NCBI RefSeq assembly: GCF_017993425.1
Contig: NZ_JAGOMQ010000015.1
Span: forward strand, 1 to 64,000
From: Amaricoccus sp.
GTDB taxonomy: Bacteria; Pseudomonadota; Alphaproteobacteria; Rhodobacterales; Rhodobacteraceae
DNA length: 64,000 bases
Reading direction: 5' to 3'
A program made the translations under genes and the position numbers. Below, piece by piece: positions 1-14,257 of the stretch (positions within the stretch are counted from its first letter, which is position 1; each line of letters opens with the position of its first letter). The notes under the pieces are model-generated. The model had not been told where the DNA came from, did not search any database, and saw nothing but the letters and a program-made list of their open reading frames with translations.

Positions 1-2
1 TC

Positions 3-239: not shown

Positions 240-280
240 CCGAGGCGGAGAAACCGGAACCGCCCACGGGCGGCGCTCGA

Positions 281-605
281 CACCCTGCACGACGCCTGCC
301 GGCCCTGCCGGATCCACGGGGCGCGCGACCGACCGAAGCGGGCTTGCCCGCAAGGCCCGGCGCGACAAGCGAAAGCATTGCTTTCGCCGCGCCGACGGCT
401 GGAGCGCGGTTGCGCGCGGAAGCCGTGAGGGGTCCAGATTTCCCCGTCGCGCGCAATCCGTCCGTGAGCGCCCCGGCGAGCGCGGAATCGCGCTCGCCCC
501 CCGAGGGGCGATCGCGGACGGATTTGCCACGGGTCAAATCCGTCTTGCGTCCCCGTCGCGACCTGCTTCCGGCCGGGGCTTCGGCTCCACCGACGTGCAG
601 GTGCG
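281..605 (-). mobile_element. MITE-like element, copy 1 (inverted, oldest)
   Basis: This is the same element as at 7197-7530 and 13842-14172, in the opposite orientation. It keeps the internal hairpins, including GACGGATTTG…CAAATCCGTC near 517-544 and the GCGAAAGCA/TGCTTTCGC stem. The ends are decayed (CACCCTGCACGACG at the left; CGACGTGCAGGTG at the right). The flanks GGCGCTCGA (272-280) and GGCGCTCAA (606-614) match at 8 of 9 bases, as expected of an aged 9-bp target duplication. It contains no credible gene. The 140-aa and 200-aa frames across it are high-GC artefacts. Confidence 0.75.
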
Positions 606-701
606 GGCGCTCAAGACGCCTCCGTTTATCCTGCAACAACATCAATATGTTGCCCCATGCCCAACTGCGGACCCCTCGCGCCCGCCCACGCCGGGCGCCC
701 G

Positions 702-730
702 TTGACACCGCCCCTGCCCGCGTATATCTC
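702..730 (+). promoter_or_regulatory. Promoter of tRNA-Leu
   Basis: A perfect -35 TTGACA (702-707) is followed 17 bp later by TATCTC (725-730). The tRNA body starts 15 bp further on. This is the expected sigma-70 layout for a stable-RNA gene. Confidence 0.6.
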
Positions 731-745
731 GCCCCGACGACACCG

Positions 746-831
746 GCCCAGGTGGCGGAATGGTAGACGCGCTGGTTTCAGGTACCAGTGGCTTAACGGC
801 CGTGGAAGTTCGAGTCTTCTCCTGGGCACCA
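746..831 (+). tRNA. tRNA-Leu (anticodon CAG)
   Basis: The acceptor stem GCCCAGG (746-752) pairs with CCTGGGC (821-827). The anticodon stem CTGGT/ACCAG encloses loop TTCAGGT with anticodon CAG. A long variable arm, as in class II tRNAs, is present. The T-arm TTCGAGT is seen and CCA is encoded at 829-831. It lies 50 bp upstream of the RNase D-like gene. Confidence 0.95.
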
Positions 832-881
832 AGTCCCCCGCGCGTCCGCGCTTCCGCGCGGCGCGCGCGCGAGGGAACGAC

Positions 882-1493
882 ATGACGAACCACCTGCACC
901 AGGGCGACCTGCCGGAGGGCCTCGACCTCGGCCCGGTCGTCGCCATCGACACCGAGACGATGGGGCTCGTCCCCGCCCGCGACCGGCTCTGCCTCGTGCA
1001 GCTCTCCGCCGGCGACGGCGACGCCCACCTCGTGCAGATCCGCCCCGGCGACGCCGCCCCCCGCCTCGTCGCCATGCTCGGCGACCCGGGGGTGGAGAAG
1101 CTCTTCCACTTCGCCCGCTTCGACGTCGCGGTGCTGCTCCACCGCTTCGGCGTGCTGACCCAGCCCGTCTGGTGCACCAAGATCGCCTCGAAGCTCGTGC
1201 GGACCTACACCGACCGCCACGGCCTCAAGGACCTGCTCCGCGAGATGCTCGAGGTCGACGTCTCCAAGGCGCAGCAATCCTCCGACTGGGGCGCGGCCAC
1301 GCTCACCCCGGCGCAGATCGACTACGCCGCATCGGACGTCCTCCACCTCCACCGCCTCAAGGCGGCGCTGGAGCCGCGCCTCGCCCGCGAGGGCCGGGCC
1401 GGGCTGGCGCGGGCCTGCTTCGACTTCCTCCCCACCCGCGCCCGCCTCGACCTCGCCGGCTGGGACGAGGTCGACATCTTCGCCCATGCCTGA
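882..1493 (+). CDS. rnd: RNase D-like 3'-5' exonuclease (single-domain)
   Basis: This 203-residue protein is only the DEDDy exonuclease domain. The first acidic pair is in VAIDTETMGL near residue 22. A middle HFARFDVAVL motif follows, and YAASDVLHLHRL carries the catalytic Tyr and Asp. It lacks the C-terminal HRDC domain of E. coli RNase D, as is usual for the short alphaproteobacterial form. It should trim RNA 3' ends using two metal ions. The ATG at 882 follows GAGGGAACGAC. The stop overlaps the kdsD start by 8 bp, so the two are probably co-transcribed. Upstream in-frame ATGs lie before and inside the tRNA and are not credible starts. Confidence 0.88.
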   Translation: MTNHLHQGDLPEGLDLGPVVAIDTETMGLVPARDRLCLVQLSAGDGDAHLVQIRPGDAAPRLVAMLGDPGVEKLFHFARFDVAVLLHRFGVLTQPVWCTKIASKLVRTYTDRHGLKDLLREMLEVDVSKAQQSSDWGAATLTPAQIDYAASDVLHLHRLKAALEPRLAREGRAGLARACFDFLPTRARLDLAGWDEVDIFAHA

Positions 1494-2502
1494 CCCCGTG
1501 CCCGCCCGCGCTCCGACCCCGCCGCCCGACGACGCCCCCCGCGACGCCAGCCTGATCGCCGCCGGCCGCCGCGTGGTCGGCGTCGAGGCCGAGGCGCTCG
1601 GCAAGCTCGCGGGCGCGCTCGACGCCAGCTTCGCCGCCGCCGCCCGGCTGCTCCTCGCTGCGAAGGGCCGGGTGATCGTCTCCGGCATGGGCAAGTCCGG
1701 CCATGTCGGGCGCAAGATCGCCGCGACGCTCGCCTCGACCGGCACGCCCGCCCTCTTTGTTCACCCGGCCGAGGCGAGCCACGGCGACCTCGGCATGATC
1801 ACCCGCGACGACGTGGTGGTGCTGCTCTCGAACTCCGGCGAGACGCCCGAGCTCGCCGACCTGATCGCCTATACCCGCCGCTTCGCCATCCCCCTCGTCG
1901 CCGTCGCCGGCCGCGCCGACAGCACGCTGATCGCCCAGGCCGACATCGGCGTCGTCCTGCCCGACGCGCCCGAGGCCTGCCCCGTCGGCCTCGCGCCCAC
2001 CACCTCCACGACGATGACCCTCGCCCTCGGCGACGCGCTGGCCGTGGCGCTGATGGAGGCCCGCGCCTTCACCCCGGCCGCCTTCCGCGACCTCCACCCC
2101 GGCGGCCGCCTCGGCGCGCGCCTCGCCACCGTCGGCCAGCTGATGCACCGCGGCGCCGAGGCGCCGCTCGTAGGCGTCGAGACGCCCATGCCCGAGGCGC
2201 TGATCGAGATGACGCGGAAGGGCTTCGGCGTCGTCGGCGTCACCGACGGCGAGGGCGCGCTCGTCGGCATCGTCACCGACGGCGACCTGCGCCGGCACAT
2301 GGACGGCCTGCTCTCCCGCCGCGTCGGCGAGGTGATGACCCGCGCGCCCCGCACCATCGCCACAACCGCGCTCGCCTCCGAGGCGCTCGGGATCATGAAC
2401 GCCTCGCGCATCACCACGCTCTTCGCGGTCGACCCGGCGGCGCCCGGCCGGCCGGCCGGCGTGCTGCATGTCCACGACTGCCTGCGCGCCGGCGTCGCCT
2501 GA
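1486..2502 (+). CDS. kdsD: Arabinose-5-phosphate isomerase (KpsF/GutQ)
   Basis: The 338 residues have an N-terminal SIS domain (SGMGKSGHVGRKIAATLASTG) and two C-terminal CBS domains (…GIVTDGDLRRHM…). It should interconvert D-ribulose-5-phosphate and D-arabinose-5-phosphate, the first step towards Kdo for lipopolysaccharide. Length and domain order are normal for the family. The start overlaps the stop of the exonuclease gene. lptC begins 3 bp after its stop, so it heads the LPS part of this operon. The kdsB gene at 8708-9508 acts later in the same pathway. Confidence 0.93.
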   Translation: MPDPVPARAPTPPPDDAPRDASLIAAGRRVVGVEAEALGKLAGALDASFAAAARLLLAAKGRVIVSGMGKSGHVGRKIAATLASTGTPALFVHPAEASHGDLGMITRDDVVVLLSNSGETPELADLIAYTRRFAIPLVAVAGRADSTLIAQADIGVVLPDAPEACPVGLAPTTSTTMTLALGDALAVALMEARAFTPAAFRDLHPGGRLGARLATVGQLMHRGAEAPLVGVETPMPEALIEMTRKGFGVVGVTDGEGALVGIVTDGDLRRHMDGLLSRRVGEVMTRAPRTIATTALASEALGIMNASRITTLFAVDPAAPGRPAGVLHVHDCLRAGVA

Positions 2503-2505
2503 GCC

Positions 2506-3171
2506 ATGGCCGCCGCCGGCCCCGGGCTCTATTCGCGCCTCGTCGCCATCCTCAAGGTCGGGCTGCCGCTCGTCGCCATCGCCATGCTCGCCGGCCTCTT
2601 CCTCGGCTCGGAGCGGCCGCGCGGCGGCGGCGAGCTGGTGTTCTCCCCGGCCGACCTCGCGGCGCTCGGCAGCGGGATGCGGGTCAGCGCGCCGGTGTTC
2701 TCCGGGGTGACCGACGCGGGCGACCGCTTCCGCTTCACCGCCGCCGAGGTGACCCCCGACGCCGCGCCCCCGACCCGCGCCGCCATCGACGCGCTCGCGG
2801 GCCGGATCGACTTCGCCGACGGCCGCGGCGTCGACGTCCGCGCCGACGACGGCGATCTCGACCTGCATTCCCAGGCGCTGAAGCTCGAGGGCGACGTCCG
2901 GCTCCGCAGCGACGACGGCTACGCCTTCGCCGCCCGGCGCGTCGACGTCGACCTCCGGGCCGGCGGCATGGTGGCCACCGGCGAGGTCGGCGGCGAGGGC
3001 CCGATGGGCACGATCGCCGCCGGGAGGCTCACCGTCACGCCCCCCGAGGCGGAAGGCGGCGGGCGCAAGTTCTTGTTCGAGGAGGCGGTGCGGGTAGTAT
3101 ACGATCCGGCGACCGCCCCGCCCGGGGCGGCCGCGGCCCCTGCCCCGACCGGGGCCTCGACCGAAGAATGA
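2506..3171 (+). CDS. lptC: LPS export protein LptC
   Basis: This 221-residue protein has a single N-terminal membrane helix (about residues 12-35: LVAILKVGLPLVAIAMLAGL), then a periplasmic beta-rich domain typical of LptC/YrbK. LptC links the LptBFG transporter to the LptA bridge and passes LPS outward. The C-terminus ends in a Pro/Ala-rich tail. The position between kdsD and lptA matches the classic yrb/lpt order. Sequence identity is low, as usual for LptC, so the call rests on architecture and context. Confidence 0.85.
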   Translation: MAAAGPGLYSRLVAILKVGLPLVAIAMLAGLFLGSERPRGGGELVFSPADLAALGSGMRVSAPVFSGVTDAGDRFRFTAAEVTPDAAPPTRAAIDALAGRIDFADGRGVDVRADDGDLDLHSQALKLEGDVRLRSDDGYAFAARRVDVDLRAGGMVATGEVGGEGPMGTIAAGRLTVTPPEAEGGGRKFLFEEAVRVVYDPATAPPGAAAAPAPTGASTEE

Positions 3172-3181
3172 AAGGCCTCCG

Positions 3182-3796
3182 ATGCGCGCCGTGACCATCC
3201 CTGCCCTGCTCGCGGCGCTGGCGGCGGGCGGCGCGGCGGCGCAGCAGGGCCCCGCGGCGGCGACCGGCGCGGCGGCGCGGGAGGCCGCGCCCAAAGGCGG
3301 CGCCTCGGTCCCCTTCGGGGACTTCGAGCACGATTCCACCCTGCCGGTCGAGATCACCTCCGACGCGCTGGCGCTCGACCAGACGGCGCGGACCGCGGTG
3401 TTCACCGGCACGGTCAAGGTCGGCCAGGGCGAGCTGCGCCTCGCCGCCGACCGGCTCGAGGTCTACTACGCCGAGGGCGCCGAGGGGCAGCAGGGCGGCA
3501 TCGAGCGCATGGACGCCACCGGCAACGTCACCCTCTCGAACGGCGTCGAGGCCGCCGAGGCCCGGCACGCCCGCTACGTCGTCTCGACCGGCATCGTCGA
3601 CATGGACGGCGACGTCCTCCTCACCCAGGGCTCCAACGCGCTCGCGAGCGAGCGCCTGCGCCTCGACCTCAACGCCGGCACCGGCACCCTCGAGGGCCGC
3701 GTCAAGACGATCATCGTCCCCGGCGAGGTCAAGGGCGCGGCCCCCGCCGCCCCGCGCAAGGGCGCCCCGGACGCCGGGAAGGGCGCCGCGCCTTGA
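3182..3796 (+). CDS. lptA: LPS transport periplasmic protein LptA
   Basis: The 204 residues begin with a signal peptide (MRAVTIPALLAALAAGGAAAQ). An OstA/LptA jelly-roll domain follows (EITSDALALDQTARTAVFTGTVKVGQGELRLAADRLEVYY). It should form the periplasmic bridge that carries LPS to LptD. The tail is Lys/Ala/Pro-rich. A GAATGAAAGG stretch overlapping the lptC end may serve as its ribosome site. The stop overlaps the TTG start of lptB (TTGA), which indicates translational coupling. Confidence 0.9.
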   Translation: MRAVTIPALLAALAAGGAAAQQGPAAATGAAAREAAPKGGASVPFGDFEHDSTLPVEITSDALALDQTARTAVFTGTVKVGQGELRLAADRLEVYYAEGAEGQQGGIERMDATGNVTLSNGVEAAEARHARYVVSTGIVDMDGDVLLTQGSNALASERLRLDLNAGTGTLEGRVKTIIVPGEVKGAAPAAPRKGAPDAGKGAAP

Positions 3797-4548
3797 GCCG
3801 CCCCGCGCTCCGCGTCACCGAGGGCGGCCAGGGCCTCGTCGCCGCCAACCTCGGCAAGGCCTACCGCCGCCGCCCGATCCTGCGCGACGTCTCGCTCTCG
3901 CTCCGCCGCGGCGAGGTCGCGGCGCTGCTCGGGCCCAACGGCGCCGGCAAGACCACCTGCTTCTACGCCATCGCCGGCCTCGTCCCGCCCGATTCCGGGA
4001 CCGTCTCCGTCGACGGCGTCGACGTCACCCACCTGCCGATGTACCGCCGCGCCAGGATGGGCATCGGCTACCTACCGCAGGAGGCCTCGGTCTTCCGCGG
4101 CCTCTCCGTCGCCGACAACATCCGCGCCATCCTCGAGGTCACCGTCCCCGACGCCGAGAAGCGCCACGAGATGCTCGACGAGCTCCTCGGCGAGTTCTCG
4201 ATCGCCCACCTCGCCCGCGCCCCGGCCATCGCCCTCTCCGGCGGCGAGCGGCGGCGGGTGGAGATCGCCCGCTGCCTCGCCGCCCTGCCGAAATACGTGC
4301 TCCTCGACGAGCCCTTCGCCGGCGTCGACCCGCTCGCCGTCGCCGACATCCGCAAGCTCGTGCGCCAGCTCAAGGACCGCGGCATCGGCGTGCTGATCAC
4401 CGACCACAATGTGCGCGAGACGCTGGAAATCGTCGACCGGGCCTATATCCTTCACGGGGGCTCGGTGATCATGACCGGCACCCCCGAGGAGGTCGTGCGC
4501 GACGACAATGTGCGGCGTGTCTACCTTGGCGACAGCTTCCGCATCTGA
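3793..4548 (+). CDS. lptB: LPS export ABC transporter ATPase LptB
   Basis: The 251 residues form a complete ABC ATPase. Walker A is LGPNGAGKTTC, the signature is ALSGGERRRVEIARCL, and Walker B is YVLLDEPFAGVDP. A switch His lies in LITDHNVRET. It powers extraction of LPS from the inner membrane with LptFG, which are not in this window. The start is TTG, overlapping the lptA stop by 4 bp. rpoN follows 33 bp downstream, the widespread proteobacterial arrangement. Confidence 0.94.
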   Translation: MSRPALRVTEGGQGLVAANLGKAYRRRPILRDVSLSLRRGEVAALLGPNGAGKTTCFYAIAGLVPPDSGTVSVDGVDVTHLPMYRRARMGIGYLPQEASVFRGLSVADNIRAILEVTVPDAEKRHEMLDELLGEFSIAHLARAPAIALSGGERRRVEIARCLAALPKYVLLDEPFAGVDPLAVADIRKLVRQLKDRGIGVLITDHNVRETLEIVDRAYILHGGSVIMTGTPEEVVRDDNVRRVYLGDSFRI

Positions 4549-4581
4549 CCGCGGACGCGGCGCAGGACGGGGCGCCGCCTG

Positions 4582-5907
4582 ATGGCCCTCGCCCCGCGCA
4601 TCGAGATCCGGCAGGGCCAGGCGCTCGTCATGACGCCGCAGCTGCAGCAGGCGATCCGCTTCCTGCAGATGTCGAACCTCGCGCTGACCGACTACGTCGC
4701 CGCCGAGGTCGAGAAGAACCCCTTCCTCGAGCTCGCGTCGCCCCCGCCGCTCCCCGCCGGCGGCGCCCGCATCGGCCGCGCCTCGGCCGGCCCGATCGAC
4801 GGGCTCGACGCCACGCCCGCCACCGTCAGCCTCGCCGACCACCTCCAGGCCCAGATCGGCGCCGCCCGCGCCGCGCCCTCCGTGGTCACCGCCGCGCGCC
4901 TCCTCGCCGAGGAGCTCGAGGAGGACGGCTACCTGCGCGCGCCGCTCGCCGAGGTCGCCGCCCGCCACCGCCTCGCCGCTTCGGACGTCGAGCGCGGGCT
5001 GGCGCTGGTGCAGTCCTGCGACCCCGTCGGCGTCGGGGCCCGCACGCTGGCCGAATGCATGGCGCTCCAGCTCCGCGAGCGCGACCGCCTCGACCCGGCC
5101 ATGCGCGCGCTCGTCGAGAACCTCGTCCTCCTCGCCCGCGGCCGCACCGAGGAGCTCCAGGCGATCTGCGGCGTCGACGCGGCCGACTTCGCCGACATGC
5201 TCGCCGAGCTGCGCGCCCTCGACCCCAAGCCCGGCCTGCGCTTCGCCGAGGCCCCGACCCAGGCCGTCGCGCCCGACGTCTACGTCGTCCGCGCGCCCGG
5301 CGGCGGCTGGACCGTCGAGCTCAACACCGAGACCCTGCCCCGCGTCCTCGTCGACAACCGCTACGTCGCGCAGCTCGCCGGCAAGGACGGCCCGACCCGC
5401 GCCTACGTCTCCGAGATGAGCGCCGCGGCGAACTGGCTGGCGCGCAGCCTCGAGCAGCGCGCCCGCACCATCCTGAGGGTCGCGAGCGCGCTCGCCCGCC
5501 ACCAGGAGGGCTTCTTCGACGCCGGCCCCGGCCGCCTGCGCCCGCTCACCCGGCGGGCGCTCGCCGACCGGCTCGGCCTCCACGAATCCACAATCAGCCG
5601 GGTCACGGCCGACAAGTACGTCGCCTGCGAGCAGGGAGTGATCGAGATGCGGGGCCTCTTCAGCGCGACCATCCAGTCCTCCGCCGGCGGCGAGGGCGTC
5701 TCCGCCGCGGCGGTCCAGTCGCGCATCCGCGCGATGATCGCCCGCGAGGCGGCGGCGCGTCCGGTCTCCGACGACGCCCTCGTAAACCTCCTCGCCGAGG
5801 AGGGGATTGAAATCGCTAGGCGGACGGTTGCAAAGTACCGCGAAGGCATGGGCATACCGTCCTCGGTCGAGCGTCGTCGATCCAGGGCGACCCTCGCCAG
5901 AACCTGA
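4582..5907 (+). CDS. rpoN: RNA polymerase sigma-54 factor
   Basis: The 441-residue protein has the Gln-rich activator-interacting region at its N-terminus (QGQALVMTPQLQQAIRFLQMSNLAL). A core-binding region follows, then a DNA-binding HTH (LADRLGLHESTISRVTADKY). It ends with an RpoN box close to the consensus (ARRTVAKYRE). Sigma-54 directs transcription of nitrogen and other genes with enhancer-binding proteins. The linkage to hpf and ptsN is conserved across Proteobacteria. It is slightly shorter than E. coli RpoN because the acidic region II is compact. Confidence 0.94.
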   Translation: MALAPRIEIRQGQALVMTPQLQQAIRFLQMSNLALTDYVAAEVEKNPFLELASPPPLPAGGARIGRASAGPIDGLDATPATVSLADHLQAQIGAARAAPSVVTAARLLAEELEEDGYLRAPLAEVAARHRLAASDVERGLALVQSCDPVGVGARTLAECMALQLRERDRLDPAMRALVENLVLLARGRTEELQAICGVDAADFADMLAELRALDPKPGLRFAEAPTQAVAPDVYVVRAPGGGWTVELNTETLPRVLVDNRYVAQLAGKDGPTRAYVSEMSAAANWLARSLEQRARTILRVASALARHQEGFFDAGPGRLRPLTRRALADRLGLHESTISRVTADKYVACEQGVIEMRGLFSATIQSSAGGEGVSAAAVQSRIRAMIAREAAARPVSDDALVNLLAEEGIEIARRTVAKYREGMGIPSSVERRRSRATLART

Positions 5908-5983
5908 CGGTTCAGGGGCGCGGCCGCCGATGCGGGCGAACCAACCAGAGCCGGCGATGGCCGGCGCATTAGGGGGGCGCGAC

Positions 5984-6562
5984 ATGCGAATCCAGGTCAG
6001 CGGCAAGCAGATAGACATCGGCGAGTCGCTGAGAAACCACGTCGAGGACAAGGTCGTCGAGCTGTGCGGCAAGTACGCCGACCGCGCCGTCGAGGCCGTG
6101 GTGATCTTCTCCCGCGACCGGCACGAGTTCATCGCCGACAGCTCGGTCCACCTGCCGACCGGGCTGACCGCCCAGTCCAAGGCGCGCGCCGGCGAGATCT
6201 ACGCGAGCTTCGACGCCGCGATGGACCGGCTCGAGAAGCAGCTCCGCCGCTACAAGCGGCGGCTCAAGGACCACCACCGCAACCGCGAGTTTCCGATTGA
6301 AGCCGTCGACGCGCCGTCCTACATCCTCGCGAGCGGCGAGGACCATGCCGACGGGGCGGAGCCCGAGACGCTCCAGCCGATCATTGTCGCCGAGATGGAG
6401 ACACGGGTGCCTTATCTGTCGGTCGGCGAGGCGGTGATGCAGATGGAGCTGGCCGGGGCGGGGGTGCTCGTCTTCCGCAACGACGCGCATGGCGGGGTCA
6501 ACGTGGTGTACCGGCGCGACGACGGCAACATCGGCTGGATCGACCCGCGGAACAGCCAGTGA
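5984..6562 (+). CDS. hpf: Ribosome hibernation promoting factor, long form
   Basis: The 192 residues start at MRIQVSGKQIDIGESLRNHVEDKV, the S30AE/YfiA domain that sits in the decoding channel. A linker and a C-terminal dimerisation domain follow (TLQPIIVAEMETRVPYLSVGEAVMQMEL…). The two domains define the long HPF type, which pairs 70S ribosomes into 100S particles in stationary phase. The ATG at 5984 matches the conserved N-terminus. In-frame codons further upstream give no family sequence. It sits between rpoN and ptsN as usual. Confidence 0.92.
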   Translation: MRIQVSGKQIDIGESLRNHVEDKVVELCGKYADRAVEAVVIFSRDRHEFIADSSVHLPTGLTAQSKARAGEIYASFDAAMDRLEKQLRRYKRRLKDHHRNREFPIEAVDAPSYILASGEDHADGAEPETLQPIIVAEMETRVPYLSVGEAVMQMELAGAGVLVFRNDAHGGVNVVYRRDDGNIGWIDPRNSQ

Positions 6563-6590
6563 CGCCGACGGGCCGAGGGAGTCCCTGATC

Positions 6591-7055
6591 ATGGAGCTTT
6601 CGCAGATTCTGGGCGTCGAGGCCGTGCGCGCGCCCCTCAAGGCGACGAGCAAGAAGCGCCTGCTCCAGGACCTCGCCGACATGGCCGAGCAGGTCTACGG
6701 CCTCTCGGCCGAGGCGGCCTACAAGGCGCTGACCGAGCGCGAGGCGCTCGGTCCCACCGGCGTCGGGCGCGGCGTGGCCATCCCGCACGCCCGCTTCGCC
6801 GGGGTGAGCCACGTGGTCGGGCTGTTCGTGCGGCTGGAGAAGCCGGTCGACTTCGAGTCGATCGACCGCCAGCCGGTCGACCTCGTCTTCGCCCTCCTCG
6901 CGCCGGAGGCGGCCGGGGCCGAGCACCTCAAGGCGCTGGCGCGCGTGTCGCGGACCCTGCGCAGCGAGGCGATCTGCGCCAAGCTGCGCTCGACCTTCGA
7001 TCCCAACGCCCTCTACGCGATCCTGACCGAGACGAAGAGCGAGCAGGCCGCCTGA
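6591..7055 (+). CDS. ptsN: PTS nitrogen-regulatory enzyme IIA (EIIA-Ntr)
   Basis: The 154 residues match EIIA-Ntr. The phosphorylated His66 lies in GRGVAIPHARF, with VGLFVRLEKPVDFESIDRQPVDLVFALLAP behind it. It receives phosphate from EI-Ntr/NPr and adjusts potassium and nitrogen control and other targets. The start at 6591 has GAGGGAGTCC upstream, and in-frame codons inside hpf are not needed. It is the last gene of the rpoN block. The next 140 bp are featureless up to a MITE-like element. Confidence 0.93.
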   Translation: MELSQILGVEAVRAPLKATSKKRLLQDLADMAEQVYGLSAEAAYKALTEREALGPTGVGRGVAIPHARFAGVSHVVGLFVRLEKPVDFESIDRQPVDLVFALLAPEAAGAEHLKALARVSRTLRSEAICAKLRSTFDPNALYAILTETKSEQAA

Positions 7056-7196
7056 GACCGCCCGGCGACGGCGATCTCAGGCAGGCCCCTCCCCCTGTCG
7101 CCGCCATCCCCTTCCCCTCCGAGCCCTCCCGGCACGCAACCCGGTCGCCGGGATCGCAGCCGAGCGGCGACGCGTCGCCTCTCGACGGCGCATGTC

Positions 7197-7530
7197 CACA
7201 CTGCACGACAGTGGAGAGGAAGCCCGGCCCGAGGCTGGCCGCGACGGTGACGCCAGACGGATTTGACCCGTGGCAAATCCGTCCGCGATCGCCCCTGCGG
7301 GGGGCGAGCGCGATTCCGCGCTCGCCGGGGCGCTCACGGACGGATTGCGCGCTTCCGCAGAAATCGGCGCCCCTCACGGCTTCCGCGCGCAACCGCGCTC
7401 CAGCCGTCGGCGCGGCGAAAGCAATGCTTTCGCCTGTCGCGCCGGGCCTCGCGGGCAAGCCCGCTTCGGTCGCTCGGCGCTCGCGCGCGCCCCGTGGATC
7501 CAGCAGAGCAGACAGGTGTCGTGCAGTGTG
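7197..7530 (+). mobile_element. MITE-like element, copy 2, with 9-bp target duplication
   Basis: The 334-bp element is bounded by inverted ends CACACTGCACGACA (7197-7210) and TGTCGTGCAGTGTG (7517-7530). Perfect direct repeats GCGCATGTC flank it at 7188-7196 and 7531-7539. Inside are at least three 10-bp hairpins: 7256-7265/7274-7283, 7303-7312/7317-7326 and 7414-7423/7425-7434. There is no transposase frame; overlapping open frames exist only because of base composition. It lies between the convergent ptsN and galU genes. Confidence 0.85.
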
Positions 7531-7563
7531 GCGCATGTCACCGCCGCGGAATCTCGCCGCAGC

Positions 7564-7601
7564 AAAATCAATGACTTACCGAATTTTCACGCGTGAACAC
7601 C
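7564..7601. repeat. Conserved 38-bp block with TTCACGCGTGAA palindrome, copy 1
   Basis: AAAATCAATGACTT (7564-7577) leads into a perfect palindrome TTCACGCGTGAA (7586-7597). A near-identical block lies at 14205-14242, also about 33 bp to the right of a MITE copy and just downstream of a minus-strand gene end. The sequence between block and MITE is not conserved. It may be a target landmark or a terminator-like element. Confidence 0.55.
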
Positions 7602-7614
7602 ACGCCACGACAGA

Positions 7615-7640
7615 ACGGCGCGCCGCTTCGGGCGCGCCGT
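7615..7640 (-). terminator. Hairpin downstream of galU
   Basis: A perfect 10-bp stem ACGGCGCGCC (7615-7624) / GGCGCGCCGT (7631-7640) with loop GCTTCG lies 40 bp past the galU stop on the minus strand. The T-run after it is weak (TTCTG). It probably ends galU transcription. Confidence 0.5.
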
Positions 7641-7680
7641 GAAGCCCGGGACGCCGCGCCCCGCGCCCCGGACCCGGCGA

Positions 7681-8598
7681 TCAGCCGCGGGCGACCGCCT
7701 TCTCGCGCAGCGGCTCGCGCAGCGAGTCGAGCGTGGTCTGGAGGTAGTCCAGGAACTCGCCGCGCAGCTCGTCCCGGGCGAGGCCGAAGGCCACCGTCGC
7801 CTGGAGATAGCCCGACTTCGAGCCGCAGTCGAAGCGCTGGCCGCGGAAGCGGAAGGCGTGGACGTCGCCGCGCCGCCCGATCTCCTGCGCGATCGCGTCG
7901 GTCAGCTGCACCTCGCCGCCGGCCCCGGCCTCGAGCTTCTCGAGGTTCTTCAGCACGTTCGGCGTCAGGATGTAGCGGCCGATCACCGCGAAGTTCGAGG
8001 GCGCGTCGGCCGCCTTCGGCTTCTCGACCATCGCCCTCACCGACATCGTGGTGCCGGTCTGGCCGCCGACGTCGACGATCCCGTAGGAGGAGACGCTGGC
8101 ATGCGGCACCTCCATCGTCGCGACCATGTTGCCGCCGGTCTCGGCATAGGCCTCGACCATCTGCTTCAGGCAGGGGGTCTCCGCGTCGATCACGTCGTCG
8201 GGCAGGATCACCGCGAAGGGCTCGTCGCCGATCAGCCGCCGCGCGCACCAGACGGCGTGGCCGAGGCCGCGCCGCTCCTGCTGCCGCACATAGGCGACCG
8301 CGCCCGAATCCATGTCCGTCTGCTTCAGCGCCTCGATCAGCGCCGTCTTCTTGCCCTCGTGCAGCGCCGCCTCGAGCTCCGGCGCGCCGTCGAAGTAGTC
8401 CTCCAGCGCGCTCTTGCCGCGCGAGGTGACGAAGATGAACTCCTTCACCCCCGCGGCGCGCGCCTCGTCGATCGCGTACTGGATCAGCGGTCGGTCGACG
8501 AGGGGGAGGATCTCCTTCGGCACCGACTTGGTCGCCGGCAGGAACCGCGTCCCGAAGCCGGCCACCGGAAATACAGCCTTCGTAACCTTGCGGCTCAT
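7681..8598 (-). CDS. galU: UTP-glucose-1-phosphate uridylyltransferase
   Basis: The 305 residues begin KAVFPVAGFGTRFLPATKSVPKEILPLVDRPLIQYAIDEA, the nucleotide-binding signature of GalU. Later motifs include VILPDDVID and VEKPKAADAPSNFAVIGRYIL. It makes UDP-glucose from UTP and glucose-1-phosphate for glycans and LPS sugars. Length is normal. It is 110 bp downstream of kdsB on the same strand, and the 8599-8707 gap holds no gene. The C-terminus faces a hairpin and a MITE copy. Confidence 0.95.
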   Translation of the reverse strand: MSRKVTKAVFPVAGFGTRFLPATKSVPKEILPLVDRPLIQYAIDEARAAGVKEFIFVTSRGKSALEDYFDGAPELEAALHEGKKTALIEALKQTDMDSGAVAYVRQQERRGLGHAVWCARRLIGDEPFAVILPDDVIDAETPCLKQMVEAYAETGGNMVATMEVPHASVSSYGIVDVGGQTGTTMSVRAMVEKPKAADAPSNFAVIGRYILTPNVLKNLEKLEAGAGGEVQLTDAIAQEIGRRGDVHAFRFRGQRFDCGSKSGYLQATVAFGLARDELRGEFLDYLQTTLDSLREPLREKAVARG

Positions 8599-8707
8599 CG
8601 CGCCCCTCGCTCGTTACTCATCCTTGAACCCCGCTGCGCGGCGTCCGTTCCATGGCGACCCTGCCCCGCCCTTAGCACAACCCCGGAACGGCGTCCCCTG
8701 CTTTTGC

Positions 8708-9508
8708 TCACGGCCGTCCCTCGGCAGCCAGAATCGCCTCGATCCGCGCCACGTCCTCGGGATTGTTGAGCTCCCAGAAGGCGCGTCCGCGCGCGTCGAC
8801 CTCGACGCAGCGCACCGGCACGCCGTTCTCGAGAAACCGGAGCTGCTCCAACCCTTCCCACGCCTCGAGCGGACCCTCGCGCCACTCGTCATAGCGCAGC
8901 AGCGCCCCCCGGCGATAGGCGTAGGCGCCGACATGGTGAAAGACCGGAATCGTCTCCCCCGGCCCGAGCGGCCGCCCGGTATAGGGGATGACCTCCTTCG
9001 AGAAGTAGAGCGCGTTCCCCTCCGCCCCGAAGACCGCCGTGGTCGCGCCGACCCGCCCGTTGCGGCGGTCCTCGATGAAGCTCGCCATCGAGCCCGCGTC
9101 GCAGCGCAGCACCGGCGTCGCCATCTCGCAGTCCGGATCGGCGCGCATCGTGCGGATCAGCGCGCCGAGGAACCAGGGCGGCGTCAGCGGCGCGTCGCCC
9201 TGCAGGTTCACCACCACGTCCCAGCCCGGCCCCATCGCCCGCGACACCGCGGCGCAGCGCTCCGTGCCGTTGCGGCAATGCTCCGAGGTCATCACCACCT
9301 CGGCGCCGAAGTCCTCCGCCGCCTTGCGGATGCGCTCGTCGTCGGTCGCCACCACGATCCGGTCGACGCCCGGCACCTCGTGCGCCGCCTCCCAGGCCCG
9401 CCGGATCAGGCTCCGCGGCTCGCCCGTCGCCCCGCGCAGCGCCGTCAGCGGCTTGCCCGGGAAGCGGGTCGAGGCGTAGCGGGCCGGGATGACCAGCAGG
9501 ACGCGCAA
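8708..9508 (-). CDS. kdsB: CMP-Kdo synthetase (3-deoxy-manno-octulosonate cytidylyltransferase)
   Basis: The 266 residues start LLVIPARYASTRFPGKPLTALRG, the KdsB nucleotide-binding loop, with VVNLQGDAPLTPPWFLGALI following. It activates Kdo as CMP-Kdo for the inner core of LPS and complements kdsD in this window. The start codon is TTG at 9506-9508, four bases after the cysQ stop, so the two are coupled. GDAPL is typical for the Asp that binds magnesium. No alternative start upstream is possible without entering cysQ. Confidence 0.9.
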   Translation of the reverse strand: MRVLLVIPARYASTRFPGKPLTALRGATGEPRSLIRRAWEAAHEVPGVDRIVVATDDERIRKAAEDFGAEVVMTSEHCRNGTERCAAVSRAMGPGWDVVVNLQGDAPLTPPWFLGALIRTMRADPDCEMATPVLRCDAGSMASFIEDRRNGRVGATTAVFGAEGNALYFSKEVIPYTGRPLGPGETIPVFHHVGAYAYRRGALLRYDEWREGPLEAWEGLEQLRFLENGVPVRCVEVDARGRAFWELNNPEDVARIEAILAAEGRP

Positions 9509-9512
9509 GGCG

Positions 9513-10310
9513 TCAGGCGCCCGCCAGCGGCACGCCCGGCGCGTGGGCGATGAAGAACGGGTTCTCGAACCCGGCCTTGCCGTAGGTGAGCGGCGTGTGG
9601 TCGTCGAAGCGCACCACCTTGCCCCCGGCGCCGAGCAGCACCGCCTGCCCGGCCGCGGTGTCCCACTCCATCGTCCGCCCGAGCCGCGGATAAAGATCCG
9701 CCTCGCCCGCCGCCACCAGGCAGAACTTCAGCGACGACCCGGCCGAGCGGAAGTCCTTCACCGCATAGCGCCCGATGTAGTCGTCCGTCGCCTGGTCGCG
9801 ATGCGACTTCGACGCCACCACCACCAGCGCCGCCGGATCGGGGTCCGAGACCTCGAGCGGCCGCACCTCGCCCTGCCGCTCCACCGCGTGCGCCCCGGTC
9901 TCCTCGACCGAGCGCCCGTCGGCCAGCGTGTAGAACAGCCGCCCGATCGCCGGCGCATAGACCACGCCCCGCGTCGGCACGCCGTCCTCGATCAGCGCGA
10001 TGTTCACCGTGAAGTCGCCGCGCCGCTGCACGAACTCCTTCGTCCCGTCGAGCGGATCGACCAGGAAGAACGTCGCCGCCGAGACCCCGTGGCTCGCCGC
10101 CTGCTCCTCGGTCACCACCGGGATCTCCGGGAACGCCGCCGCGAGCCCCGCCGAGATCAGCGCGTCCGCCCGCTCGTCGGCCACCGTCACCGGCGAGGCG
10201 TCTGCCTTCGCCTTCACGCCGAGGTCGGGGCCGTCATAGACCTCCATGATCGCCGCGCCCGCCTCGAGGGCAAGACGGCGGCAGGTCGTCACGATGCTGG
10301 CATGGTCCAT
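9513..10310 (-). CDS. cysQ: 3'(2'),5'-bisphosphate nucleotidase CysQ
   Basis: The 265 residues belong to the inositol monophosphatase superfamily. Metal ligands are in VVTEEQAA and FLVDPLDGTKEFVQRRGDFTVNIALIED. The C-terminal WDTAAGQAVLLGAGG motif carries the last Asp. It hydrolyses PAP to AMP, or can act on PAPS in sulfate assimilation. The ATG at 10310 (MDHASIVTT) gives family length; the frame stays open further upstream but lacks family sequence. It leads a cysQ-kdsB-galU minus-strand run. Confidence 0.9.
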   Translation of the reverse strand: MDHASIVTTCRRLALEAGAAIMEVYDGPDLGVKAKADASPVTVADERADALISAGLAAAFPEIPVVTEEQAASHGVSAATFFLVDPLDGTKEFVQRRGDFTVNIALIEDGVPTRGVVYAPAIGRLFYTLADGRSVEETGAHAVERQGEVRPLEVSDPDPAALVVVASKSHRDQATDDYIGRYAVKDFRSAGSSLKFCLVAAGEADLYPRLGRTMEWDTAAGQAVLLGAGGKVVRFDDHTPLTYGKAGFENPFFIAHAPGVPLAGA

Positions 10311-10409
10311 CGGCGGTCTCTCCCGGCACTGGTCAATCGGAACTGGACAATCCGACCCTATGACCACCCGCGGCGGCATTGTAAACAGGAACGCACGGTG
10401 AGGTTTACG

Positions 10410-11921
10410 ATGGCCGATATTCCCCCGGGCGGCGTTCCGCCGACCCACGCGCGGCTCGCCCGCTGGTGGCGCCGCTGGCGCTGGCTGACGCTCGGCGTCG
10501 GCGGCTTCGTGGCGGTCTGGCTCCTCGTCGTCGCCGGCAACAGCCTCGGCCGCTACCTCGGCTGGTTCGTCCCCGCCGCCCCGCCCGAGACGATCGCCGC
10601 CGCGCTCCGCCCCTACTACCGCCCCCTGGTCCCGCCCGGCCCGGGGCCCTTCCCCACCGCGCTCCTCTACTCGGGCTGCGACGGCCCGCACGACAACCTC
10701 GACCGCTGGGCCGCCATGCTGAACGCCCGCGGCTGGGCGGCCATCGTCGTCGACAGCCACGCGCCCCGCGACTACCTCGACCACGACGTCTGGCGGCTGA
10801 TCTGCGCCGGCCAGCTGCTGATGGGCTCCGAGCGCGCCGCCGACGTCCTCGTCTCGATCTACGACGCCCGGCGGATGGACTTCGTCGACCCCGACCGGAT
10901 CGTGCTGATCGGCGCCTCGCACGGCGGCTGGGCGATCATGGAGCTCCTCGCCTTCGAGAAGGAATGGCGCCTCCCCTACGGCCTCTCCGCGCTCCCCGCC
11001 GGCGACGCGCGGCACCCCCTCGACGGCGTGGCCGGCGCGATCCTGCTCTACCCCTATTGCGGCACGGCGAACCGCGCGCGCCGCCTCGGCTGGAGCCTCC
11101 CCGTCCCGGTCCTGTTCCTGCTCGCCGGCCGCGACACCATCGCCCCGGCCGGCGCCTGCCTCGACATCGCCGGCGAGCTCGCCCGCGCCGGCCTCCCCGT
11201 CGAGACGCGGGTATTCCCCGGCGCGACCCACGGCTTCGACCAGCAGGAACGCGCGCCGCTCAGCTTCCTCGAGTTCGACCCCGAGATCACCGCCGAGGCC
11301 ATGACCCTCGCCGGCGCCTTCCTCGACCACCTCCCCCCGCCCCGCACACCGCCACCCGCCCGCCCCCGCCCTGACGCGCGCCCCGGGCAGCGGCGCGCGC
11401 ATCGACCACCCCGCAGCGCGCGCCCACGCAGCGGCCCGGCCCGCACGCGCGCGTCGCCCGGCGGGGGACTGGCCGGACATCGCGGGATCAAGCGGCTCGA
11501 CACACCCGCGCGCACATCCTGCCGCCGCCCCGGGCGCTCACCGCCAGCGGATCGCCGCCGCCGTGACCAGCCCGCCGCCCGCGCCCCCGGGCAGCGGCTC
11601 GACGCGCACCCGGGCGAGCGCGTCGACCGAGCCGTAGCGCGCCCGCGCCGCCGCGGCGACCGGGGTCGCCTCCTCCTCGGCGGGATGGATCGGCCGCGCC
11701 AGCACCGCGACCTCCCCGAGCACGACATGCGCCCGCGTCGGCGTGGCCGGGAACTGCGGCGCCCCGCCGCCCCGCGTCATCGCGCCGAGCCCGACGCCGG
11801 ACATCAGGACGGCCATCGCCGCCACGAACGCAGCACGTCGCATGCCGCCCGTCTCCAGAAGGTCGCTTTCGGGATCGCGACGTTGTGCGCCGCAACATTT
11901 CCCTACCGCAACCTTTGTTAA
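10410..11921 (+). CDS. Membrane-anchored dienelactone-hydrolase-like protein (3' end suspect)
   Basis: The N-terminus has one membrane helix (about residues 25-45, LTLGVGGFVAVWLLVVAG). An alpha/beta-hydrolase domain follows with nucleophile Ser in LIGASHGGW, Asp in LLAGRDT and His in GATHGFDQQ, so the catalytic triad is complete. The substrate is unknown. The domain ends near 11337 (AFLDHLPPP). The frame then runs on for about 195 Arg/Pro-rich residues, antisense to the gene at 11538-11843, until 11921. The +1 frame stops at 11374. A one-base indel in the C-rich tract near 11330-11345 would restore a normal end there. The true product is probably about 310-320 residues. Confidence 0.6.
   Translation: MADIPPGGVPPTHARLARWWRRWRWLTLGVGGFVAVWLLVVAGNSLGRYLGWFVPAAPPETIAAALRPYYRPLVPPGPGPFPTALLYSGCDGPHDNLDRWAAMLNARGWAAIVVDSHAPRDYLDHDVWRLICAGQLLMGSERAADVLVSIYDARRMDFVDPDRIVLIGASHGGWAIMELLAFEKEWRLPYGLSALPAGDARHPLDGVAGAILLYPYCGTANRARRLGWSLPVPVLFLLAGRDTIAPAGACLDIAGELARAGLPVETRVFPGATHGFDQQERAPLSFLEFDPEITAEAMTLAGAFLDHLPPPRTPPPARPRPDARPGQRRAHRPPRSARPRSGPARTRASPGGGLAGHRGIKRLDTPARTSCRRPGRSPPADRRRRDQPAARAPGQRLDAHPGERVDRAVARPRRRGDRGRLLLGGMDRPRQHRDLPEHDMRPRRRGRELRRPAAPRHRAEPDAGHQDGHRRHERSTSHAARLQKVAFGIATLCAATFPYRNLC
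11538..11843 (-). CDS. Small secreted protein of unknown function
   Basis: The 101 residues start MRRAAFVAAMAVLMSGVGLGA, a plausible signal peptide. A short mature part contains HVVLGEVAVLARPIHPAEEEATPVAAAARARYGSVDALARVRVEPLPGG. I do not recognise a family. It runs antisense to the run-on tail of the hydrolase frame, and only one of the two is likely to be real here. Its signal peptide and balanced composition favour this one. The 5' side is an AT-richer gap up to mlaA. Confidence 0.5.
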   Translation of the reverse strand: MRRAAFVAAMAVLMSGVGLGAMTRGGGAPQFPATPTRAHVVLGEVAVLARPIHPAEEEATPVAAAARARYGSVDALARVRVEPLPGGAGGGLVTAAAIRWR

Positions 11922-12118
11922 GCCGGGGTTAATCCCGCCGCCCGCCGCGCAGGCGCGACCTTTCCGCCACACCCCCGCGCGCCGCCCCTCCGGCCGCGCG
12001 CGCCCCGCGCCGGGAACCGGCCCCCCGCCGCGGCGTTCCGCCCCGGCCCCGCGCGGGACGCCCATGGTGGCGCCGCGCGGCGAAGGAGGCTAAAGAGGGC
12101 GTCCCGGACGGAGGAACG

Positions 12119-12868
12119 ATGCGGCGCACCCAGGCTTCCGACATCCCGCGCGCGCTGGCGGTCCTCTGCCTCTGCGCCTCCGCCGGCTGCGCCACGCGGC
12201 CGGCGCCGCCGCCCTCGCTCGAGGACGACCCGCTCGAGGAGCAGAACCGCTCCTCCCACCAGCTGAACGTCGCCCTCGATTCCACCCTCTACGGACCCGC
12301 CGCCCGCACCTACGGCGCCGTCGTTCCCGAGCCGGCGCGCAACGGCGTGACCAACCTCGTCAACCACTCGCGCCTGCCGCACGGGGCGATCCAGTACCTG
12401 CTGCAGGGCCGCCCGGAGATGGCGCTCCAGGACACCCTGCGCTTCGCGGTCAACACCGTCTTCGGCCTCGGCGGCCTGCTCGACCCGGCCAGGGAGATGG
12501 GCCTGCCCTACCGCGAGACCAACGTCGACGAGACGCTGCACGTCTGGGGCGTGCCCGCGGGCGGCTACTGGGAGCTGCCGGTGGGCGGCCCGGGCACCCA
12601 GCGCGACTGGATCGGCTACGGCATCGACGTCGTCGTCGACCCGGCCTTCTACCTGACCGGCGGCGCCTCCTACGTGATCGCCGGGCTCCGCGGCGTCGAT
12701 CTCCTGCACGACCGCTACAAGCTCGACCCGGCGGTCGAGGCGCTGCTCTACGAGAGCTCGGACAGCTACACCGCCCAACGGATCAGTTACTTGCAGAACA
12801 TGACCTCGCGCCTCCAAGGTGGCGCGACGGCGCTCGAGACCCTGGAGGACCCCTATGCCGACCAATGA
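12119..12868 (+). CDS. mlaA: Outer-membrane phospholipid lipoprotein MlaA (VacJ)
   Basis: The 249 residues begin with a lipoprotein signal ending in SAGCAT (lipobox Cys near residue 24). The VacJ domain follows (DPLEEQNRSSHQLNVALDSTLYGPAARTYGAVVPEPARNGVTNLVNH…). MlaA removes misplaced phospholipid from the outer leaflet of the outer membrane and hands it to MlaC. The ATG follows GGACGGAGGAACG, a good ribosome site. It overlaps mlaC by 14 bp, so the pair is coupled. mlaFEDB is not in the window. Confidence 0.93.
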   Translation: MRRTQASDIPRALAVLCLCASAGCATRPAPPPSLEDDPLEEQNRSSHQLNVALDSTLYGPAARTYGAVVPEPARNGVTNLVNHSRLPHGAIQYLLQGRPEMALQDTLRFAVNTVFGLGGLLDPAREMGLPYRETNVDETLHVWGVPAGGYWELPVGGPGTQRDWIGYGIDVVVDPAFYLTGGASYVIAGLRGVDLLHDRYKLDPAVEALLYESSDSYTAQRISYLQNMTSRLQGGATALETLEDPYADQ

Positions 12869-13484
12869 CGCCCCGATCTCGCGCCGCCGCCTGCTCGTCC
12901 TCGCCCTCGGCGCCGCCGCGCTCCTCGCGCTCCCCTTCCGCGCCGCGCCCGCACTGGCCGACACGCCGACCGACCGCGCCACCGCGCTGGTGCAGGGCCT
13001 CTCCGACCAGCTGATCGCGCTGCTGCGCTCCGGCCGCTCCGAGGCGCAGCTCTACGGCGAGTTCGAGAAGCTCCTCGCCCGCTACGGCGACATCCCCGTC
13101 GTCGCCGGCAGCGTGCTCGGCCCGCCCTGGCGCGGCGCCACCCCGGCGCAGAAGCAGGCCTTCGTCGCCGCCTTCCAGACCTATCTGTCGCGCAAGTACG
13201 GCAAGCAGTTCCGCGACTACCAGAACGCCTCGATCCGCATCGTCCGCGCCCGCGACGCCGGCAAGAGCGGCGTCCTCGTCGAGACCCGCGTCGACCGCCC
13301 CGGCCGCGACGGCTTCACCGTCGAGTGGCAGGTGAGCGAGCGCGGCGGCGCGCCCAAGGTGATCAACCTGATCATCGAGGGCGTCTCGATGCTGACCAAC
13401 GAGCGCGCCGAGATCGGCGCCCAGTACGAGGCCGCCGGCGGCAACCTCGACAAGCTGATCGCCAGCCTGAAGGCCACCGCCTGA
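12855..13484 (+). CDS. mlaC: Phospholipid-binding protein MlaC
   Basis: The 209 residues start MPTNDAPISRRRLLVLALGAAAL. This is a signal peptide with a twin-Arg-like SRRRLLVL motif and likely cleavage after ALA. The MlaC/Ttg2D domain follows (…AQLYGEFEKLLARYGDIPVVAGSVLGPPWRGATPAQKQAFVAAFQTYLSRKYGKQF). It ferries phospholipid across the periplasm between MlaA and the inner-membrane Mla transporter. The start inside mlaA was chosen because it gives a clean signal peptide. Confidence 0.9.
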   Translation: MPTNDAPISRRRLLVLALGAAALLALPFRAAPALADTPTDRATALVQGLSDQLIALLRSGRSEAQLYGEFEKLLARYGDIPVVAGSVLGPPWRGATPAQKQAFVAAFQTYLSRKYGKQFRDYQNASIRIVRARDAGKSGVLVETRVDRPGRDGFTVEWQVSERGGAPKVINLIIEGVSMLTNERAEIGAQYEAAGGNLDKLIASLKATA

Positions 13485-13549
13485 CCGCCGCCCGGCCGTC
13501 CTACCGTGGCGACGCGCTCACATGCGCTCGCCCGTGAAGCGGCCGGAAA

Positions 13550-13650
13550 ATGACGAGCAAATGCAAACGCGCCGTATCTCGGCAACGCTTATTTGCGCGC
13601 AAATATAATTCGAAATATATTTGCAAATATTCTGAATATAAACGGTGAAA
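13550..13650. other. AT-rich island with nested palindromes
   Basis: In a very GC-rich neighbourhood this stretch is dominated by A and T. It contains two palindromes, ATTTGCGCGCAAAT (13591-13604) and ATATTTGCAAATAT (13617-13630), sharing the core ATTTGC. No open frame or tRNA is visible. It follows the mlaC stop by about 65 bp. It may be a regulatory or protein-binding site, or remnant foreign DNA. 13651-13841 has no recognisable feature. Confidence 0.5.
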
Positions 13651-13841
13651 ATCATCGCACAGTCATCAGCGCCGCATTCCGCGGCGCCGTTCGACTCACT
13701 TGAAGCTTGCGCCCTCCCCGTCCGAACCGCTCCGCGTCGAGCAGGATGACATGCGCATGTCCTCCTGCGGCGCCGTCGCGAGGCGAGACGCCGCCGCGGA
13801 TCGACCCTTGCCGCCTCCGTCGTGAAGCGCGACGAAGGCAA

Positions 13842-14172
13842 CACACTGCACGACAGTGGAACGGAGCCCCGGCCGGAAGCAGGTCGCAACGGCGCCGCCA
13901 GACGGATTTGACCCGCGGCAAATCCGTCCGCGATCGCCCCTGCGGGGGGCGAGCGCGATTCCGCGCTCGCCGGGGCGCTCACGGACGGATTGCGCGCTTC
14001 CGCAGAAATCGGCGCCCCTCACGGCTTCCGCGCGCAACCGCGCTCCAGCCGTCGGCGCGGCGAAAGCAATGCTTTCGCTTGTCGCGCCGGGCCTCGCGGG
14101 CAAGCCCGCTTCGGTCGCTCGGTCGGTCGGCGCTGGTGCCCCGTGGAGAGCAGACAGGCGTCGTGCAGCGTG
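13842..14172 (+). mobile_element. MITE-like element, copy 3, with 9-bp target duplication
   Basis: The 331-bp copy is nearly identical to copy 2 through its interior. The left end CACACTGCACGACA is intact. The right end reads GTCGTGCAGCGTG, with one change relative to copy 2. Perfect direct repeats CGAAGGCAA flank it at 13833-13841 and 14173-14181. It lies between the convergent mlaC and the winged-helix/hydrolase gene. No transposase is encoded. Confidence 0.85.
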
Positions 14173-14204
14173 CGAAGGCAACGTTACAACATAACACATC
14201 TATT

Positions 14205-14242
14205 AAAATCAATGACTTGCGTAATTTTCACGCGTGAGCACC
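14205..14242. repeat. Conserved 38-bp block with TCACGCGTGA palindrome, copy 2
   Basis: AAAATCAATGACTT (14205-14218) is followed by AATTTTCACGCGTGAGCAC, matching 7564-7601 at most positions. It sits 33 bp right of MITE copy 3 and ends about 15 bp from the stop of the minus-strand gene at 14258. Confidence 0.55.
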
Positions 14243-14257
14243 CACGCGCCCACACCC

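Follow-up and report, generated by a model that had tools for sequence, protein, structure and literature searches.

Miniature transposable elements of an Amaricoccus genome: probable mobilization by an IS4-family insertion sequence and a set distance from a palindromic landmark repeat

Introduction

The DNA analyzed here is a stretch of 64,000 nt (the window), comprising positions 1-64,000 on the forward strand of contig NZ_JAGOMQ010000015.1 in the Amaricoccus sp. assembly GCF_017993425.1, a genome of 4.24 Mb in 102 contigs that is labeled G000 below. It contains three copies of a miniature inverted-repeat transposable element (MITE), two of which are followed by a 35-bp repeat, here called landmark repeat M, that joins a consensus site for integration host factor (IHF) to a palindrome. 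The original prediction for this DNA had claimed three copies with common inverted ends and 9-bp target duplications, a high copy number, and movement in trans by an enzyme with a 9-bp stagger. Our analysis went beyond these claims in revealing a fixed distance between elements and landmark, the stacking of elements, and the presence of the interior, without these ends, in a relative. Congeners are labeled G001, G005, G008, G009, and G010, while C-numbers denote contigs and L-numbers denote loci or proteins.

Elements and landmarks in the window

The features of the window on which the analysis centered are as follows.

281..605, minus strand: MITE copy 1, decayed and inverted; flanks GGCGCTCGA and GGCGCTCAA, 8/9 identical by eye
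640..652, plus strand: IHF-like box CATCAATATGTTG, 12/13, separated by 34 bp from the right-hand end of copy 1, without a clear palindrome behind it
7188..7196, no strand: left target duplication GCGCATGTC, flank of copy 2
7197..7530, plus strand: MITE copy 2, reference copy A, from homology and ends
7531..7539, no strand: right target duplication GCGCATGTC, flank of copy 2
7566..7600, plus strand: landmark repeat M, with an IHF consensus box at 7566-7578 and the palindrome TTCACGCGTGAA at 7586-7597, starting 35 bp after copy 2
13833..13841, no strand: left target duplication CGAAGGCAA, flank of copy 3
13842..14172, plus strand: MITE copy 3, from homology and ends
14173..14181, no strand: right target duplication CGAAGGCAA, flank of copy 3
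14207..14241, plus strand: landmark repeat M with one pattern mismatch, starting 34 bp after copy 3

Copy number, ends, and target duplications

The three predicted copies with common inverted ends proved real, as did their duplications, which are perfect at copies 2 and 3. These two copies share 95% identity over 281 nt, and the inverted copy 1, which matches them over 117 and 81-87 nt, is more decayed, with two mismatches at its left end and a right end about one base out of register (six mismatches ungapped). A search of G000 with 7197-7530 returned at least 49 matches (the best 40 of 422 candidates were scored), and a query from another subfamily, termed B (length about 324 bp; L076 contains an example), gave at least 48 matches that were partly the same as those of copy 2. 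The 14-base end, with up to two mismatches, occurred 213 times in G000 vs 5 times for a reversed-pattern control. Interval and element counts cover 482 kb of G000, in which 116 homologous intervals were located. Of these, 104 span over 250 query bases, and the claim of a high copy number was borne out.

Inverted ends were recognizable, with at most 4 mismatches in 14 at both, in 84 of the 116 intervals, and these constitute the element set used below; the other 32, window copy 1 among them, were left out. The 84 elements are 311-350 bp long, and their flanks agree at 9/9 bases in 37 cases, at 8/9 in 18, and at 0-7 of 9 in 29. Allowing ±2 bases of play raised these figures to 47/84 at 9/9 and 21/84 at 8/9, compared with a mispaired-flank control in which at least 8/9 bases agreed in 0.24% of cases without play and in 1.7% with play. 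The open reading frames (ORFs) that cross the copies are GC-rich overlapping frames. Terminal inverted repeats, a target duplication of fixed length, and a short body without a transposase gene are the marks of a MITE, and by these sequence features the copies form a true transposable family. A distant-sensitivity search of two collections, of plasmids and of phages, gave no match to the MITE, and no longer element with MITE ends was found among the end pairs of 29 loci plus the window.

The site of copy 2, the gap between galU and ptsN, lacks the element in all ten congeners that were read, with ptsN convergent to galU recognizable by eye in 9 of the 10; the condition under which the original prediction would have fallen thus did not arise. 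The sequence behind galU in G009 resembles, by eye, the MITE interior, while that of G008 contains an IHF box with one mismatch and another palindrome, in opposite polarity.

Another repeat lies at about 13768-13832 of the window, with an end like ...CGTCGTGGAGCGTG (in the window CCGTCGCGAGGCGAGAC...GATCGACCCTTGCCGCCTCCGTCGTGAAGCG), and similar sequence stands beside C43:38655, C68:19643, and C92:179805 of G000. It is stacked against the MITE or located upstream of M and is probably another family with the same type of end.

Landmark repeat M and its distance from the elements

M is a 35-bp unit, AATCAATGRCTTNNNNAATNTTCACGCGTGAAcac, composed of an IHF consensus and a 12-bp palindrome. At up to three mismatches it has 113 copies in G000, whereas the reversed control gave none, and no copy was found in ten congeners or, by exact-match search, in viral contigs. 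Alignment of the 102 copies examined out of the 113 displayed sharp borders, with ATCAA conserved at 97-100%, TT at 100%, and the palindrome TTCACGCGTGAA with its following CA at 98-100%. Base 13, which the collecting pattern did not fix, was A or G in 102/102, and the IHF consensus WATCAANNNNTTR, as printed in the excerpt of PMC3281130, was exact in 95/102 and had one mismatch in 7, the pattern having already fixed most of its bases. The right-hand gene pointed at M in 75 of 93 callable cases, with its stop codon less than 60 bp away in 54 of the 75 (simple ORF caller). M thus resembles repetitive extragenic palindromic (REP) sequences in being palindromic, 20-40 bp long, high in copy number, and situated at gene 3' ends. 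Its conserved columns contain neither REP tag, GTAG or CGTC, and the Y1 transposase model of REP-associated tyrosine transposases (RAYTs), PF01797, had no match in G000 and matches in 5/14 control genomes. The reading of M as a RAYT-driven REP was rejected on this ground, and M, having no tag and no Y1 transposase, is by its sequence REP-like but not placed in the GTAG or CGTC super-families. A second repeat, CGGGCGATTGGCCATGAGG..., occurs upstream of some M copies.

The distance between elements and M was counted from both sides. From the element side, 13 of the 84 elements, absent from the homology and end lists, were removed against the bias of loci fetched through M; among the remaining 71, found without use of M, 37 had M at 33-36 bp and 40 had it within 80 bp, compared with a chance expectation of about 0.01 at 33-36 bp (71 elements, two ends, four positions, 113 sites). 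From the M side, 62 of 102 copies had an element end (at least 9 of 14 bases) at 33-37 bp, 51 of these at 34 or 35. The far side of M had an end-quality match somewhere in 120 bp in 30/102, with 2 at 33-37 bp. The box was oriented identically each time, and both ends of the element occur on the side toward it (29 and 21 cases in a common frame). Elements and M might merely share permissive gaps between converging genes, where M is indeed located; such a shared habitat predicts broad distances, whereas 51 of the 102 M copies have an end at 34 or 35 bp, and this narrow peak contradicts the idea and leaves it hardly credible.

Some elements without M followed the same geometry. In the 61 usable flanks of 34 such elements, 8 of 9 same-strand IHF boxes (at most one mismatch, within 150 bp) lay at 34-35 bp, and the opposite strand carried six boxes, three of them at 37 bp, a distance attributable to the near-palindromic nature of the IHF box. 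Palindromes with arms of at least 6 were centered at 58-62.5 bp in 8 cases vs 1.8 expected, in 7 of the 34 elements, their centers falling about 13-14 nt after the box and their sequences differing (TATCACGCGTGATA, TAACACGCGTGTTA, GTCCCACTGTGGGAC, GGGTTGCGCG-TGCGCAACCC). By a combined criterion, 60 of the 84 elements have a landmark; the geometry of the distance rule holds for the majority of copies, not for all. With 113 copies here and none in ten congeners, M must have spread inside the lineage by some route, and one could imagine that M itself moves and inserts at a set spacing from elements already in place, reversing the order of events. We judge this very improbable, given that 40 of 102 M copies have no recognizable element end at 33-37 bp, that elements lacking M carry other box-palindrome units at equal distance, and that conservation is lacking in the DNA that separates element from M.

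Two units of other palindrome classes are present in the window.

40920..40953, plus strand: box-palindrome unit, ACTCAATTAATTG + GTCCCACTGTGGGAC, with no family member found beside it
49170..49207, plus strand: box-palindrome unit, AATCAATTCTTTG + CATCTGTC...GACAGATG, box and palindrome

Such units were considered as a genus-wide repeat and rejected in that role, with no enrichment in the samples of G005 and G001 and one unit in G008.

Several elements are followed, on their flank opposite the box, by a recurring GAAGGTTGACG or a close variant (flanks of C7:50681, C17:10455, C43:94571, C52:88714, and C91:8711 in G000), which is perhaps the other half of a larger unit. Separately, the G000 elements without a landmark at C17:119401, C4:128384, C46:14262, and C49:18268 have similar surroundings (GGCTGGAATCCGGCTTGCC...TTTTT and TTCCAGCCCGG) that look like another repeated, terminator-like target.

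The partner insertion sequence

At the start of contig C8, a MITE-type inverted end borders a different interior. The corresponding 127-bp insertion sequence (IS) end, with the inverted repeat CACACTACACGACACAG, occurs at five places in G000, of which four are contig starts (C8, C19, C22, and C23) and one is close to the end of C101; a position at contig edges is expected of a collapsed longer repeat. On C101, a transposase reading frame runs from its ATG for 78 codons up to the contig end. No model matched this 78-aa piece alone, and it was placed by its 65% identity to the full-length L083 of congener G009; a second full-length relative, L086, from a Rhodobacteraceae metagenome-assembled genome (MAG), shows 58% identity. 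Both L083 and L086 belong to the IS4 family by NCBIfam NF033591 (193 and 211 bits vs a cut-off of 152) and carry the Pfam DDE domain, and the IS4-family pattern Y-2-R-3-E-6-K is visible in both. Relatives on plasmids, all below 60% identity, are partly annotated as IS4 family of ISLpn9, ISAba1, or ISSysp2 type. Two Roseomonas plasmid copies end in CACACTACACGACA, with duplications of 9/9 (CCCGACGAC) and 8/9, and a Cereibacter plasmid copy has GCAAATACC on both sides (by eye), i.e., 9/9, its right end overlapping the transposase stop codon. An IS with MITE ends and 9-bp duplications was therefore sought and found, as an end in G000 and as full-length plasmid relatives carrying both traits, which supports the predicted movement in trans by an enzyme with a 9-bp stagger. 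These sequence comparisons suggest that the mobilizer is likely an ISLpn9/ISAba1-like IS4-family insertion sequence and that the MITE family probably owes its movement to the transposase of this larger, related element. Beside the IS end, L080 1-1500 (the end of G000:C101) contains frames reminiscent, by eye, of IS66-type accessory genes and of the remnant of an IS4-type transposase.

The IS ends partly obey the distance rule of the MITEs. Two of the five in G000 lie near M, at 34 bp on C8 and 33 bp on C19; the end on C23 is 7 bp from a MITE, and no M is present at that of C22. In congeners, 21 end-like places were fetched and 11, from G008 and G009, entered the palindrome count, the ten left out being one place with a 48-bp flank, both ends of an older copy, two variant ends in G009, and five places in G005 and G010. 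For 6 of the 11, a palindrome with arms of at least 6 bp was centered 59.5-62 bp away (6 of 99 positions vs 6 of 2,321 elsewhere); GTCCCCATGGGGAC and TGGGCGCGCGCGCCCA are examples of the sequences. Five of the six also had a box-like sequence, with 1-3 mismatches, at 34-35 bp. Among nine further ends, that of the IS fragment L084 of G009 has a palindrome (arms of 10 bp) about 61.5 bp away together with a 3-mismatch box at 35 bp, and the eight of plasmid or MAG relatives have neither feature. This geometry may be a property of one clade, or it may depend on landmarks that plasmid and MAG replicons lack. At L305, the start of G005:C53, an element end stands directly against the palindrome CTAACACGCGTGATAG and not at the usual distance; G005 is the closest congener by GalU identity.

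These congener ends bear on which part of the landmark might be read. The palindrome, through a bound protein or as an extruded cruciform, could set the distance with the IHF-like box as a passenger, as might be expected from palindromes lying about 60 bp from IS ends in two congeners whose boxes have 1-3 mismatches, and from one end, L291, at which a palindrome is present and the box is absent. We nevertheless regard this as unlikely, because palindromes vary between classes and species whereas the IHF consensus is common to M and the other G000 classes, and because several insertions, including window copy 1, have a box without a clear palindrome.

Stacked arrays

Adjacent elements form 12 arrays in G000, with spacers of 8-10 bp in nine, most of which contain a recognizable target duplication. 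The best references of members differ between A and B in the arrays of C4, C38, C46, and C55. Neighbors in C4, C46, C55, C78, and C92 are 85-89% identical to each other and each has a copy elsewhere at 94-99%; these arrays are therefore not recent tandem duplicates. In C59 and C68, neighbors are 96-97% identical. Among the nine arrays with M beside them, the member on the M side shows the higher similarity to its nearest relative in seven (C38, C46, C48, C68, C78, C87, and C92), with C59 reversed and C41 ambiguous.

Tandem duplication followed by alteration through gene conversion could also generate such stacks, and both the one-way orientation of all 12 arrays and the high identity of the C59 and C68 neighbors speak for it. 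This origin appears doubtful to us in view of the five arrays whose members have their closer relatives elsewhere, of the pairing of subfamilies A and B in C4, C46, and C55, and of the IS end that lies 7 bp from a MITE on C23. The arrays suggest instead that a single site was used more than once. That only one-way arrays are seen would be explained if long inverted repeats were lost or were collapsed in short-read assembly.

The interior hairpin module

In G001, 25 matches were confined to the interior of the element (positions 29-293, 70-86% identity). The MITE end was absent from this genome at up to one mismatch, and 9 of the 25 loci, upon examination, had no consistent inverted repeat with a duplication. 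Copy 2 folds better than its shuffles on both strands (z -5.5 and -6.6). An alignment of five own and nine G001 copies was 97% paired across 60 predicted pairs, a percentage favored by the prediction of the structure on the same alignment. Covariation was evident in 12 pairs changed on both sides, amounting to 37 cells vs 11.1 ± 2.5 in shuffles (0/500 as high) and 1-6 cells in slid controls. Judging from this alignment, the interior is a structured multi-hairpin module with its own history, which would have been either captured between IS4-type ends or stripped of its ends in G001. A known RNA was rejected as the identity of the interior, the only Rfam match above gathering in 1-16000 being a tRNA at 746-828. 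A weak match to the sroD RNA family at 13663-13744 on the minus strand (26 bits vs a gathering score of 50) is probably due to chance. Elsewhere in the window, at 37881-38156, a 138-bp direct repeat occurs as two adjacent copies that are 78% identical.

Discussion

We assign a probability of roughly 0.78 to the explanation that the MITEs are moved in trans by an IS4-family insertion sequence, that they settle at a fixed distance from an IHF-type box/palindrome landmark, that they stack there, and that they share their hairpin module with a relative. The transposase of an ISLpn9/ISAba1-like IS in G000 would act on the MITE ends and insert them with a 9-bp stagger, placing the element end 34-35 bp from the IHF-type box and about 59-62 bp from the center of the palindrome. 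A putative IHF, bound at the box and bending it, perhaps aided by a factor or a cruciform at the palindrome, may present the DNA to the transpososome, such that IHF-induced bending would set the distance. Since insertion leaves the landmark undestroyed, the same place is reusable, and repeated insertion about one target duplication apart would give rise to the stacks. The landmarks are mostly located behind stop codons, so insertion should do little harm and copy number may rise.

Several observations weigh against this explanation. No complete IS was found in G000 with a full-length relative as the query, the search yielding the N-terminal piece and, on C65, a relic of the C-terminal part that lacks the end. 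Twenty-four of the 84 elements, six of them in arrays, have no landmark by the combined criterion, the 40 M copies without an element end have already been mentioned, and 1-3 mismatches are common in boxes outside M. Neither 251 kb of G005 nor 400 kb of G001 showed an enrichment of box-palindrome units, and eight ends of plasmid and MAG relatives have neither box nor palindrome. The uniform orientation within all 12 arrays is not predicted by free insertion, and further pair types in the interior, one of five covariation measures, were no more frequent than in shuffled alignments (223/500).

A broader proposition, which we hold tentatively and at slightly less than even odds, is that a one-protein IS4-family transposase reads an IHF-bent palindromic repeat and inserts at a fixed distance of about 30 bp from it, sparing the repeat and thereby gaining a Tn7-like safe harbor; the targets would be REP-like units whose palindromes vary with the species, and the hairpin module would move between mobile contexts in the genus. 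If true, this would offer a simple system in which to study the guidance of a single transposase by a host architectural protein and the rise of a selfish element to about 100 copies with little harm. Two further features come to light, a REP-like repeat without a counterpart in ten congeners, in a genome without a Y1 transposase match, and a covarying hairpin module inside a mobile element.

Among known systems, insertion sequences of ISLpn9, ISAba1, or ISSysp2 type resemble the presumed mobilizer in transposase family, and the Roseomonas and Cereibacter relatives share its ends and 9-bp duplications; in contrast, the G000 copies are non-autonomous, and the plasmid relatives examined have no box or palindrome at a fixed distance. 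The IS4 family, to which IS10 and IS50 belong, comprises textbook transposons with a fairly loose choice of target. Tn7 inserts beyond glmS by means of a dedicated targeting protein, at a constant distance from a site that it leaves intact. Insertion behind a gene, at a set distance and with the site spared, is common to Tn7 and the elements described here, whereas the IS4-family relatives are listed with one transposase and their site is a dispersed repeat. The RIP/RIB elements of Escherichia coli bind IHF and are short, high-copy, palindromic, and mostly near gene 3' ends; M likewise carries an IHF-type site, predicted from the consensus. M is also short, high-copy, palindromic, and mostly near gene 3' ends in the manner of the REP sequences treated in the excerpt of PMC3733652, from which it differs in lacking a GTAG/CGTC tag and in combining box and palindrome in one 35-bp unit.

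ISRm22 of Sinorhizobium meliloti, labeled IS4 family in the excerpt of PMC1525189, inserts into REPs at the palindrome axis with 6-bp direct repeats. It has in common with the present elements its family label and its repeated palindromic intergenic targets, whereas the G000 insertions lie outside the unit, 34-35 bp from the box, with 9-bp duplications. In the excerpts available from the open-licence literature in PubMed Central, no IS4-family element was reported to insert at a constant spacing from an IHF-palindrome repeat. Mechanistically, the closest parallel is the IHF-directed integration by Cas1-Cas2 in type I clustered regularly interspaced short palindromic repeat (CRISPR) systems, for which the excerpt of PMC5382924 gives an IHF site 9-35 nt upstream of the junction; the set distance from an IHF site is alike, but Cas1-Cas2 is another enzyme acting at a single locus, while here a DDE transposase, probably guided by a putative IHF, would address a dispersed repeat.

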